A stretch of 64,000 nt of DNA from Sinorhizobium chiapasense (GTDB lineage: Bacteria > Pseudomonadota > Alphaproteobacteria > Rhizobiales > Rhizobiaceae). The stretch lies in the NCBI RefSeq assembly GCF_036488675.1, contig NZ_CP133150.1:62001-126000 (forward strand), written 5' to 3'. This document shows, in pieces, positions 48,458 through 62,716 of the stretch; within the stretch, counting starts at the first letter, position 1; each line of letters opens with the position of its first letter. Below the pieces are notes generated by a model, which saw only the letters and a list, made by a program, of their open reading frames with translations, had not been told where the DNA came from and searched no databases. Made by a program: the position numbers and the translations under genes.

Positions 48458-48473
48458 TGTCTGAAGTCCGACA
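48458..48473 (+). promoter_or_regulatory. NifA upstream activator site, copy 1
   Basis: TGT-CTGAAGTCCG-ACA is a perfect TGT-N10-ACA site. Its centre is about 116 bp upstream of the predicted start of transcription, the usual distance. A second, imperfect site (TGT-N10-ACG) lies at 48438-48453. Confidence 0.85.
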
Positions 48474-48555
48474 GCAAGGCTGCAAGATTTCCGCCGACGC
48501 GACGCGAAATACGTTGTTTTGTTCCTCTTTAGCAAGTTCGCACAACCTCTTTGAT

Positions 48556-61300: not shown

Positions 61301-62716
61301 CGCGGCTTCCGCATCGAGCCGGGCGAGATCGCGGCACGGCTTTCTGAGCACGCCTGGGTGCGCGAGGCGGTGGTGGTGGCGCGAGAGGATGGCGCCGGCG
61401 ACAAGCGGCTGATCGCCTATGTGGTTGCGGCGGCGGAGCATGCCGGCGAGGCCGAGGGGTCCGACCTTGCCGGCACCTTGCGCGCGCATCTCCACGCGCG
61501 ACTGCCGGACTACATGGTGCCGTCCGCCTTCGTGAAGCTGGCGGCGCTGCCCCTGACGCCGAACGGCAAGCTCGACCGCAAGGGACTGCCTGTTCCGGAG
61601 GACGAGGCCTATGCCCGCCGCAGCTATGCGGCGCCGCGCGGCGAGGTGGAGACGACGCTGGCCGCGATCTGGGCCGAGCTTCTCGGTGTCGAGCGGGTCG
61701 GCCGCCACGACCACTTCTTCGAGCTCGGCGGACACTCGCTGTTGGCGGTACGGCTGCTCAGCCAAGCACTAAATCTTGGGCTGAAGTTTAGCGCCACCGA
61801 TCTCTTCCAAGCTCCTGTTTTGATGGATCTTGCATCGAAGGTCAAGTTGGCACCTCACTCCACTCCTGCTGGAGTGCTTTCCGTTCGTGCGACGGGATCA
61901 CAGGCGCCGCTCTTCTTTCTTCCCGCAGGTTCCGGAGATTGTTCCTATGTCCTTAGCTTGGTAAAGGAAATGGACGTAGATTGCCCTGTCTATGCTCTGC
62001 CATGGCCGTCCTTTGATGACGCTTGTCCCCTAACTCTTGAGGCGATTGCCTCGCAAGCACTCTTGGCGATTAAAAGCCTTCAGCCGCGGGGGCCATATCG
62101 CTTCGCTGGTTACTCCTCGGGCGCAATCTTGGCCTACGCGATTGCCGAGCGGTTACTAAGTTTCGATGAAACTGTATCATTCGTGGCTTTCATCGATGTT
62201 ACGCTACCTGCAAATCCCATGAGCAAGCCACCATCCCAAATAGTCCAAGAAGTGGTGTTAGAATCGCTCGAACCGTTGGATGATGAGCAGTTCGACGTAT
62301 TGGAACGCTTTTCCAGACAAAGTTCAGTTGTTCAGTTGCTTGAAAAGGCGCAGCAGATTGGAGCGCGTTCTCCAGGTGATCTCCGAAACGACGTTTTGAT
62401 GTATGAAAGAATTTCCCAGTTCCAAAGGGCGCTGCAGTTGTATCGAATCCCGTCTCTGCCAATAGAGATACATCAACTTTATGCCGCTGAGCCAGTGCCT
62501 AGTCGTCGGGCACGGCCAGGCAGGATTTCCCTAGCTTCGGAGGCAAGTTCGCCCATGCGGGGTTGGGACCGGGTCTTGAGTGAGACGGCCATTCATGCCG
62601 TACCGGTCCCAGGCAATCACATGACGATGATGAGTGTCCCAGAAAACCGCAGAGTTCTGGCTCGATCCTTAGTAGCGGCCTTAAACACCTCGCTGACAAC
62701 ACCTGGACATGGTTAG
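52316..62716 (+). CDS. Three-module nonribosomal peptide synthetase with thioesterase
   Basis: About 3,466 residues. The frame is open from 52226, but that ATG lies in the promoter. ATG 52316 has AGGAG 12 bases upstream; ATG 52274 is an alternative. By nucleotide: formyltransferase-C-like linker 52340-52680; half condensation domain without H-H-x3-D-G 52740-53470; A1 53520-54980, T1 to 55320; C2 55400-56740, A2 56810-58280, T2 to 58600; C3 58690-60030, A3 60100-61560, T3 to 61860; thioesterase 61900-62700 (Ser in G-Y-S-S-G, His in P-G-N-H-M). Pocket residues by eye: A1 D-A-W-Q-F-G-L-I-D (Gln/Glu-like), A2 D-V-W-H-L-S-L-I-D (Ser), A3 D-I-L-H-L-G-C-T-F (nearest the hydroxyphenylglycine type). 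C2 and C3 carry H-H-L-L-A-S-R-G-D, the dual epimerisation mark, implying D residues at positions 1 and 2. T domains read F-F-E-L-G-G-H-S-L. Confidence 0.92.
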   Translation: MDRSFFTKHQRPDAAGCLRWDRPAQDLSAMTRAVDFGPYHSNPMCLPKVLLGEDAATVRRLEVLPRRSGFPAGRLLEIHSSHWRVATGTQDVDVCFGSSDGEDLDARALAKRFDVDVGDRLPILSDDQARSITAAHEKLAPQEDFWRQRLEQFKTLQLPFLSPSIAAAPPRWKASPWITPPALAELSEIDRAEHLLTAWLIYLARITGVSELQLGWTPATNGSPAGLKTLEALVASVVPMEITVDLSLGFAEVRRAVAAECAQLREHDSFARDLIARCPRLRGMEALRSRRPWPIGITITTDSCVAAGDPASNAHSETALSGDLLTFEVCALDGSFRWHFDASRLASQQTDRMTQHLQNLLCGVMADAEQPVGRIELLALDERTYLLEELNRTAAPYPSDMCIHELFEAQVRKAPDAVAVVYEDEELSYGELNAQANRLAHHLVALGVRPDQPVAICLERSPAMVVGLLAILKAGGAYLPLDPAYPSTRLRQVLDDAAPRLLLCDAAGRAALGAEALADLTVVDLETATPAWAELPACDPDPRALGLTSRHLAYVIYTSGSTGTPKGVMVEHRGLVNHTIWQADRFQLAAHDVFLQRTSPSFDAAVWELWTALSIGARSILLSLDRQLDIRTILGLVGSFRVTVLQVVPSLLSALIAATDVEQKEIESLRYLFCGGELLGSEIATKWLQLAPRPLVNLYGPTEATIDATAWVYPAGFDGSVVPIGRPIANTRIYLLDGDGAPVPFGAVGELYIGGAGVARGYLNRPELTAERFLADPFCNEPGARMYRTGDLARYLPDGNLEFLGRTDDQVKIRGFRIEPGEIAARLIEHAGVREAVVVAQEDGARDKRLVAYVVAAAEHAGEAEGSALAGTLRAHLHARLPDYMVPSAFVRLSALPLTPNGKLDRKALPVPEGDAYARAAYEAPRGEVEAALAAIWAELLGVERVGRHDHFFELGGHSLLAVQLLERLRRLSLGVEVRTLFAKPVLADLAASLGSHHEVAIPANLITEKSTAITPQMLPLIDLAQPEIDRIVATVPGGVGNIQDIYALSPLQDGILFHHLLASRGDPYLLVSQMAFVDRGLLDRYLGAVQRVVDRHDILRTSFVWQGLSSPAQVVWRKAPLDVSEVELDDCDGLGPEELRRRFDPRRQRIDLARAPLLRFVIAREPGSERWLLLELQHHLIGDHTTQELMHAEVRAVLEGRAHELPAPQPFRNLVAQARLGVDAKAHEQFFREQLADIDEPTMPFGLSEVYGDGSGVGEAHRLLPQALNDRLRVQARRLGVSLASLCHLAWGQVLARSSGREQVVFGTVLFGRMQAGIGADRALGLFMNTLPVRLDLDGTGVEASVRTTHRRLSELLAHEHASLALAQRCSGVAAPAPLFSALLNYRHNTPAAISGSRTDDVLSGMEWLGGEERTNYPLTLSVEDFGEALGLTAQVAEPVSAERVCAYMQHVLEQLAGALEQTPDRPVRELDILPADERTYLLEELNRTAAPYPSERCIHELFEAQVRRAPDAVAVVCEDEQLSYGELNQRANRLAHHLIALKVRPDQPVAICLERSPAMVVGVLAILKSGGAYLPLDPAYPSARLRQVLDDAAPLLLLCDAAGRAALGVEALTGLTVVDLEPATPAWAELSAADPDQRALGLTSRHLAYVIYTSGSTGTPKGAQNEHRAIINRLIWMQKAYALKATDVVLQKTPFGFDVSAWEFFWTLLEGASLVLAPPGAHKDPEALAELMISQRVTTAHFVPSMLASFMDTKGVDRCTSLQRLLCSGEALPGSIVHKVRRLLPWTGLHNLYGPTEAAIDVTAWSCPDDFDGSIVPIGRPIANTRIYLLDGHGVPVPFGAVGELYIGGAGVARGYLNRPDLTAERFLADPFSDEPGARMYRTGDLARYLPDGNLEYLGRTDDQVKIRGFRIEPGEIAARLVEHAFVREAVVVAQEDRAGDKRLIAYVVAAAEHAGEAEGSDLAGTLRAHLHARLPDYMVPSAFVKLSALPLTPNGKLDRKGLPVPEDEAYARRSYAAPRGEVETTLAAIWAELLGVERVGRHDHFFELGGHSLMAVQLMERLRRLSLGVEVRTLFARPVLADLAASLGSHHEVTVPANLISEQSTAITPEMLPLIALSQPEIDRIVETVLGGVGNIQDIYALSPLQDGILFHHLLASRGDPYLLVGQMAFADRGLLERYLAAVQQVVDRHDILRTSFVWEGLSSPAQVVWRKAPLEVNEVELSGCDGSGAAELRRRFDPRRQRIDLARAPLMRFVIAREPGSERWLLLELQHHLIGDHTTQELMHAEVRAVLEGRAHELPAPQPFRNLVAQARLGVDAKAHEQFFREQLADIDEPTMPFGLSEVYGDGSGVGEAHRMLPQALNDRLRVQARRLGVSLASLCHLAWGQVLARSSGREQVVFGTVLFGRMHAGTGADRAMGLFINTLPVRLDLDETGVEASVRTTHRRLSELLAHEHASLALAQRCSGVAAPAPLFSALLNYRHDSPAAIYGSGPDAGLAGVEWLGAEERTNYPLTLSVEDLGEALGLTAQVAAPVSAERVCSYMQCALEQLAEALEQAPNRPVRELDILPVNERSYLLEELNRTAAAYPSDMCIHELFETQVRQAPDAVAVVHDDERLSYGELNARANRLAHHLIGLGVKPGDSIATVLDRCVALVVAQLAILKAGAVYVPIDRGLPPARQRWIMADCAARLVLSESDDDYLVEGTIPVLPIEPLMAGTGSTADPGLALSAEAAAYVMYTSGSTGLPKGVVVAHRAVNRLVINNGYAQFSSRDHVAWVGNPAFDISTLEVWAPLLHGSTLVVVPYTDVLQPEVLRRLVQQHRITVLHLTAGLFSQSADGLGPVLASLRLLLVGGDAVDVAAVARVLRQNRPQHLLHCYGPTETTTFATVCEITVIDETSRRLPIGRPIANTRVYLLDGHGAPVPFGAVGELYIGGAGVARGYLNRPELTAERFLADPFCNEPGARMYRTGDLARYLPDGNLEFLGRNDDQVKIRGFRIEPGEIAARLSEHAWVREAVVVAREDGAGDKRLIAYVVAAAEHAGEAEGSDLAGTLRAHLHARLPDYMVPSAFVKLAALPLTPNGKLDRKGLPVPEDEAYARRSYAAPRGEVETTLAAIWAELLGVERVGRHDHFFELGGHSLLAVRLLSQALNLGLKFSATDLFQAPVLMDLASKVKLAPHSTPAGVLSVRATGSQAPLFFLPAGSGDCSYVLSLVKEMDVDCPVYALPWPSFDDACPLTLEAIASQALLAIKSLQPRGPYRFAGYSSGAILAYAIAERLLSFDETVSFVAFIDVTLPANPMSKPPSQIVQEVVLESLEPLDDEQFDVLERFSRQSSVVQLLEKAQQIGARSPGDLRNDVLMYERISQFQRALQLYRIPSLPIEIHQLYAAEPVPSRRARPGRISLASEASSPMRGWDRVLSETAIHAVPVPGNHMTMMSVPENRRVLARSLVAALNTSLTTPGHG
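55841..56258 (+). repeat. Near-identical condensation-domain DNA in modules 2 and 3
   Basis: 55841-56258 and 59129-59546 differ at only a handful of bases. Similarity in the linker, A-domain C-terminus and T domain of all three modules is also very high, whereas the A-domain cores differ. This is a sign of recent duplication or gene conversion within the gene. Confidence 0.85.

Follow-up and report, generated by a model that had tools for sequence, protein, structure and literature searches.

In a 64-kb stretch of the Sinorhizobium chiapasense genome (6.87 Mb), hereafter the window, a three-module nonribosomal peptide synthetase (NRPS) gene and two precursor genes lie behind two NifA-type sigma54 promoters, P1 and P2. 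We lean towards the view that this locus would make a small peptide, predicted to contain an arylglycine, under the control of NifA in low-oxygen, nitrogen-fixing nodules. The window is part of C3, a replicon of 279 kb. The elements on which this view depends are as follows.

48458 to 48473, plus strand: NifA-type upstream activator site (UAS) 1, TGT-N10-ACA, TGTCTGAAGTCCGACA (motif scan)
48556 to 48570, plus strand: -24/-12 sigma54 box 1, TGGCAC-N5-TTGC, TGGCACGCCGATTGC (motif scan)
49160 to 49705, plus strand: VOC protein, half-size and HmaS/HPPD-like, candidate Fe(II) alpha-keto-acid oxygenase for the arylglycine precursor (Pfam/NCBIfam, Foldseek, structure Z)
49780 to 51087, plus strand: pyridoxal phosphate aminotransferase (AT), putatively HpgT/DpgT-like (sequence searches; non-rhizobial relatives beside FMN_dh)
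51247 to 51816, plus strand: 4'-phosphopantetheinyl transferase (PPTase), N-terminally short (NCBIfam, comparison with relatives)
52131 to 52146, plus strand: NifA-type UAS 2, TGT-N10-ACA, TGTCCGGAGTCCGACA (motif scan)
52227 to 52241, plus strand: -24/-12 sigma54 box 2, TGGCAC-N5-TTGC, TGGCACGCCGATTGC (motif scan)
52316 to 62716, plus strand: NRPS with adenylation (A), T, condensation (C) and thioesterase (TE) domains in the order A1-T1-C-A2-T2-C-A3-T3-TE, preceded by the trimmed C-terminal part of a formyltransferase (F) domain and a C-like region (Pfam, motifs, tblastn)

The initial annotation of this DNA had described two exact promoter copies, and both are real. They lie upstream of, and in the same sense as, the genes it named, with the VOC-AT-PPTase set between them and then the NRPS; what it called a precursor and activation gene set does consist of two precursor enzymes and one PPTase. 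From start to start, UAS and box are 98 bp (P1) and 96 bp (P2) apart; its distance of about 115 bp is approached only by including the whole box (113 and 111 bp). Both boxes read TGGCACG CCGA TTGC T, which fits the -24/-12 consensus TGGCACG-N4-TTGCW, and both promoters match the RpoN and NifA consensuses as given in PMC4999443. Counts of sigma70 promoters and terminators between 48300 and 52500 were no different from those in shuffled sequence.

The exact sequence TGGCAC-N5-TTGC occurs in the window at these two sites only. Statistics on single motifs are nevertheless uninformative, since the UAS motif alone is near chance (7 matches in the window versus 6.1 expected), as is the box alone (22 exact matches in the genome versus 18 for a reversed control). 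The rarity lies in the pair of box and UAS. When pairs with the UAS start 40 to 200 bp upstream of the box were counted in 424 kb of sequence from replicons C3 and C4, there were 4 exact pairs, whereas 300 permuted motifs averaged 0.04 and never gave more than 1. The whole genome holds 3 exact pairs with 60 to 90 bp between the motifs, versus 1 in reversed controls; P1 and P2 account for two of these 3. The nifH box (TGGCACGAGTTTTGA) and the fixA box (TGGCACAAATAATGC) of the same genome are both further from the consensus than the boxes of P1 and P2, and fixA (ETF domain) has its UAS at -92, a spacing near theirs. Elsewhere on C3, at position 223090 on the minus strand, a sigma54-like box (TGGTACGCCGATTGC; locus L075) with a UAS 84 bp upstream stands ahead of a protein of 267 aa, FkbM-like on inspection by eye.

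The genome encodes NifA and RpoN, each twice, as a NifA-dependent sigma54 promoter would need. Two nifA genes score above the curated cut-off, one on C4 and one on C3, the latter 74 kb from the window's end and thus on the same replicon as the NRPS locus. Both NifA copies carry a GAFTGA motif and the cysteine pattern C-X11-C-X19-C-X4-C, which is a mark of oxygen-sensitive NifA. The two rpoN genes above the cut-off are on C1 and C4, and C4 also carries nifH and nodC.

Comparable promoters recur at related rhizobial loci. A search with the aminotransferase returned 35 loci, of which the first 22 (L023 to L044) were compared for a promoter ahead of the AT gene, scored as an exact box or as a one-mismatch box with a strict UAS. 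Such a promoter was present at all 11 rhizobial loci (L023 to L033, from Mesorhizobium, Rhizobium and Bradyrhizobium), with a strict UAS in 8, and at none of the 11 non-rhizobial loci (L034 to L044, from Dyella, Lysobacter, Xanthomonas, Andreprevotia, Variovorax, Micromonospora and others, L042 to L044 being weak AT relatives). With the plasmid loci L058 and L059 added, and the near-identical plasmids T1470 and T1473 left out, the box is found at 13/13 rhizobial loci with VOC and AT genes and the strict UAS at 9/13. Nine further plasmid loci have an NRPS start and no intact VOC+AT pair (L089 to L093 and L095 to L098); a box with at most one mismatch lies within 1 kb in six of them and at 2 kb in L089, and none was found in L090 or L091. 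Pooling the 13 and the nine loci (22 in all), a sense box lies within 1 kb of the first gene in 19, versus about 0.06 expected per locus, a count that leans in favour because AT was taken as the first gene in L023 to L025, L033 and L058 after the box had been seen. Strict box and UAS pairs occur in 14 of the 22, and 24 non-rhizobial loci (411 kb) contained a single pair, in L053. Since related loci share descent, these recurrences are not independent events. Left out of the counts was a Sinorhizobium garamanticum locus (L094) with VOC copies and no AT or NRPS; two such copies lie at 12012 to 16465, and behind each of them is an exact pair of sigma54 box and UAS.

The earlier reading of these sites as targets of NifA and RpoN is thus supported in part, by the consensus match, by the presence of NifA, RpoN, nifH and nodC in the genome and by recurrence at rhizobial loci, all of which is comparative sequence evidence. 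We consider it highly improbable that the boxes serve sigma54 under another activator such as NtrC or DctD, which would tie the locus to nitrogen or carbon status in free-living cells. RpoN does serve many activators, and four of the 13 VOC+AT loci are without the strict TGT-N10-ACA site; however, such sites are present at both promoters here and at nine of those relatives, this genome has nifH and nodC, and many of the relatives' plasmid records name root nodules as their source.

The NRPS frame is open from 52226 for 3496 codons, and translation likely starts at ATG 52316, just after GGAG. Its core motifs comprise three A domains, three T domains (LGGHSL), two C domains (HHLIGDH) and a TE (GYSSG). 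The condensation motif is HHxxxDH in place of HHxxxDG, and no HHxxxD motif is present in the first condensation-like stretch of the protein. The domains that bear on the product are these.

53534 to 54604, plus strand: A1, code DAWQFGLID, Gln-type (alignment, specificity table)
57275 to 57900, plus strand: A2 core stretch, code DVWHLSLID, Ser-type (alignment, specificity table)
60536 to 61160, plus strand: A3 core stretch, code DILHLGCTF, seen among the loci examined only together with VOC and AT (alignment, tblastn)
61907 to 62644, plus strand: thioesterase domain, GYSSG (Pfam, motif)

The nine Stachelhaus positions were taken from the alignment and placed by motif, and the codes were compared with specificity tables that include Gln, Ser and hydroxyphenylglycine (Hpg). 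The A3 code is an exact match to no entry of the tables used. It was found in all six NRPSs that have VOC and AT and whose later modules are visible (the window, L026, L028, L031, L059 and L107; the AT of L059 is split by a frameshift, yet this NRPS is counted), and in none of nine NRPSs without an intact pair (0 of the 42 A domains that the motif scan detected). Not counted were L024, L025 and L032, whose sequence stops short of the last module. Because the motif scan misses some A domains with spacing gaps, the A3 stretch was also used as a tblastn query. Its best matches were 87–92% identical in the other five NRPSs with VOC and AT, and none exceeded 59% in the nine without an intact pair; the 59% match is a broken fragment from Rhizobium sp. 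007, in which VOC and AT are broken too. Since the A3 code tracks the gene pair, VOC and AT would most likely feed this domain. A related code, DAFFLGCTF, with the same -LGCTF end, occurs in Rhizobium jaguaris (L110:7937) and in Rhizobium sp. 007 (L113:21034), in domains 55–56% identical to A3; these are possibly cousins of A3 with another substrate. Between 54464 and 61749 in the window, parts of the NRPS modules are 90–93% identical to one another, one stretch exceeding 2.6 kb, which suggests a recent duplication of modules.

The NRPS of L026 begins with a formyltransferase domain (PF00551), and tblastn found a formyltransferase-like stretch in the other NRPS loci tested. Pfam did not find PF00551 in the window NRPS, which begins in a part aligning to the C-terminal end of its relatives' F domain, with P2 directly before it. 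With that domain gone, the predicted product would be unformylated.

The two precursor genes suggest an arylglycine pathway. The VOC protein has the fold of the catalytic half of HmaS and HPPD, which are tied as its nearest match, and an invariant His-His-Glu site. The AT gene adjoins an FMN-dependent oxidase (FMN_dh) in 6/8 non-rhizobial loci, in one of them also with a full HmaS/HPPD. An HpgT-type assignment fits the source names and gene neighbours, and no HpgT model was among the NCBIfam or PDB results. We rejected MppQ/enduracididine and MocR-regulator readings of the AT, all of which scored far under the cut-off. Near the NRPS of Bradyrhizobium sp. 187 (L059:8856-14592) lie pabB/pabA-like, chorismate mutase and MFS genes, which could make p-aminophenylpyruvate.

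It is rather unlikely, in our estimate, that the promoter is real and driven by NifA while VOC and AT make some other unusual amino acid. The VOC protein does resemble methylmalonyl-CoA epimerases as well (Foldseek ranks 4 and 5, E 7e-10), the A3 code has no exact counterpart in the specificity tables used, and Royer et al. left the product of a VOC and transaminase pair open (PMC3849588). An Hmo-like gene (FMN_dh) was found neither in the window nor at any rhizobial locus fetched. We set the epimerase reading aside since HmaS/HPPD beat the epimerases both in NCBIfam score (78 vs 50 bits) and in structural Z (18–19 vs about 15), and the company that the AT keeps outside the rhizobia also speaks for arylglycine.

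The arylglycine peptide would be made as follows. NifA from C4 or C3 would bind the TGT-N10-ACA sites and open RpoN polymerase at both boxes, giving one transcript for VOC-AT-PPTase and one for the NRPS. The VOC enzyme would turn an arylpyruvate into an arylglycolate, which a chromosomal FMN enzyme or another oxidase would convert to the arylglyoxylate; the AT would then give the arylglycine to be loaded by A3. The NRPS would join Gln, Ser and arylglycine, and the TE would release the product, predicted to be Gln-Ser-arylglycine. Niche defence and host signalling are candidate roles.

P1 and P2 have a common origin, and the DNA behind P1 contains remnants of other genes.

48383 to 48629, plus strand: promoter segment P1, duplicate of P2 (BLASTN)
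48726 to 48875, plus strand: aminotransferase 3' end remnant (tblastn, 40% over 57 aa, E 2.8e-4, versus two short segments only)
48910 to 49059, plus strand: formyltransferase-domain 5' end remnant (tblastn with the L026 F domain, E 6e-5, versus two short segments only)
52065 to 52305, plus strand: promoter segment P2, duplicate of P1 (BLASTN)

The two promoter segments are 79% identical over 254 BLASTN columns (74% over MAFFT columns with gaps counted). By this alignment they represent a segmental duplication of about 250 bp, and hence are not independent promoters. The remnant at 48910 to 49059 is 69–72% identical by blastn to the F-domain start of relatives. These weak but placed remnants look like the fossil of an older order, promoter-AT-F-NRPS. 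A second P1-like promoter with an AT remnant lies in Bradyrhizobium sp. 187 (L059:33934-36321) before a coproporphyrinogen-oxidase-family gene cluster that also includes a hypothetical protein and a GNAT gene; the segment was apparently put to a second use there.

Such remnants raise the alternative that the locus as a whole, carried on an accessory plasmid, is left over from an ancestral symbiotic cluster, is decaying and makes no product. Together with the AT, F-domain and groEL remnants, the short PPTase would fit this, as would several relatives: VOC or AT is split or truncated in L059 and L097, AT remnants occur in L096 and L098, and the NRPS of L089 is short. We regard it as improbable, because the NRPS keeps an open frame with its A, T and TE and two C motifs, the VOC and AT frames are complete when compared with relatives, and both promoter copies still have the exact consensus.

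Several observations weigh against a NifA-controlled arylglycine peptide. The remnants leave decay possible, and the four VOC+AT loci without a strict UAS have been mentioned. Of the 13 VOC+AT loci, five (L023 to L025, L033 and L058) have the box after VOC and ahead of AT, which puts VOC outside it. Eight later loci with F-domain NRPSs (L115 to L122, one from Allorhizobium ampelinum and one without an annotated NRPS), unused in forming the idea, had a box within 1 kb in 2/8, at 2 kb in 1/8 and none in 5/8, and thus the promoter is not universal across the wider family; the 6.5 kb fetched for each contained no VOC or AT, save an AT remnant in L118. This brings the plasmid NRPS-start loci without an intact VOC+AT pair to 17, with a box within 1 kb in 8, at 2 kb in 2 and none in 7. 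Nor is the identity of the two boxes by itself proof of selection: we rejected that argument because the duplication has other long identical runs, one of them longer (27 vs 22 bp). The VOC protein is a single domain of 181 aa, compared with about 350 aa for two-domain HmaS, and its 78 bits against TIGR01263 compare with a cut-off of 277. The missing Hmo gene counts here too; the genome's only strong FMN_dh (PF01070) is on chromosome C1 and not at the locus. The match between the PPTase and its best NCBIfam model begins only at position 50; in Mesorhizobium mediterraneum a fuller PPTase of 209 aa follows the NRPS. Finally, enzymes of the HmaS/HPPD type require O2, which is scarce where NifA is active, and this is a physiological puzzle.

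We tentatively extend the NifA-controlled arylglycine peptide to a wider proposal, that NRPSs active only in nodules and wired to the nif switch form a plasmid-borne family found across several rhizobial genera. In one branch, a pared-down hydroxymandelate synthase of half the usual size would serve to make hydroxyphenylglycine-type residues. Between strains the peptide would vary by gain and loss of modules while the switch is kept or even duplicated. Relatives that can be named are Bradyrhizobium elkanii USDA 76 and B. japonicum USDA 123 in the F-NRPS branch, and Rhizobium sp. T136 and Bradyrhizobium algeriense RST91 in the VOC+AT branch.

Other genes of the window give its setting.

2356 to 6060: RepA, RepB and RepC-type genes (Pfam)

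An open reading frame at 48103 to 48477 had no match in a Pfam search; a nifS reading of it is based on inspection by eye and on the blastn similarity of 48000 to 48382 to the nif/fix region of C4. Upstream of P1, 46656 to 47087 encodes a C-terminal GroEL fragment (Pfam Cpn60), and in the S. garamanticum locus annotated groES and groL genes adjoin a VOC gene. Patatin-like, metallo-beta-lactamase-fold and caspase-domain genes (Pfam), with a subtilisin-like reading frame recognized by eye, cluster at 25950 to 37189 and are possibly a defence or cell-death module; in M. huakuii p_2, S8 and caspase genes are close to the NRPS.

The established role of NifA is to switch on nitrogenase and the genes that supply it. 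If the proposal is true, bacteroids would make a dedicated metabolite exactly at the time of nitrogen fixation, with consequences for partner choice, nodule defence and competition between strains. Compared with the initial annotation, the new part is the predicted arylglycine, for which the Hmo step and the O2 puzzle remain. The initial annotation had also overlooked the common origin of the promoters, the gene remnants, the lost F domain of the NRPS and the short N terminus of the PPTase. Openly licensed PMC papers, represented mostly by titles and the beginnings of abstracts, contained no report of a NifA-controlled NRPS or of hydroxyphenylglycine in rhizobia, which is weak evidence of absence, and no NRPS term occurred in the keyword passages of three transcriptome studies of symbiosis (PMC8305402, PMC5979394 and PMC3973600).

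P1 and P2 resemble the NifA/RpoN promoters of rhizobial nif and fix genes in both motifs and in a spacing close to that of fixA, but they differ in that they would drive secondary metabolism and are duplicated within one locus. The precursor genes are closest to the HmaS-Hmo-HpgT system of glycopeptide antibiotic clusters, with which they share the HmaS/HPPD-like catalytic fold with His-His-Glu, a putatively HpgT-like AT and, in A3, the pattern D-x-L/F-H-L-G of the Hpg code; they differ in the half-size VOC and in having no Hmo gene at the locus. The rhizobial relatives are like LgrA, the linear gramicidin synthetase with formylating initiation, in having a formyltransferase domain before A1; in this strain of S. 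chiapasense that domain has been lost. In the META-B NRPS loci of Xanthomonas, a VOC-type "hypothetical protein" and a transaminase lie by the NRPS in two strains, according to Royer et al. 2013 (PMC3849588). A "lactate dehydrogenase" is also listed there, which fits the Hmo role. These loci differ in their modules and in having longer synthetases; in the X. prunicola relative (L038) we found no NifA/sigma54 site. The arylglycine pathway predicted here would offer a likely function for the pair of VOC and transaminase genes in Xanthomonas and Dickeya, to which Royer et al. assigned none (PMC3849588).

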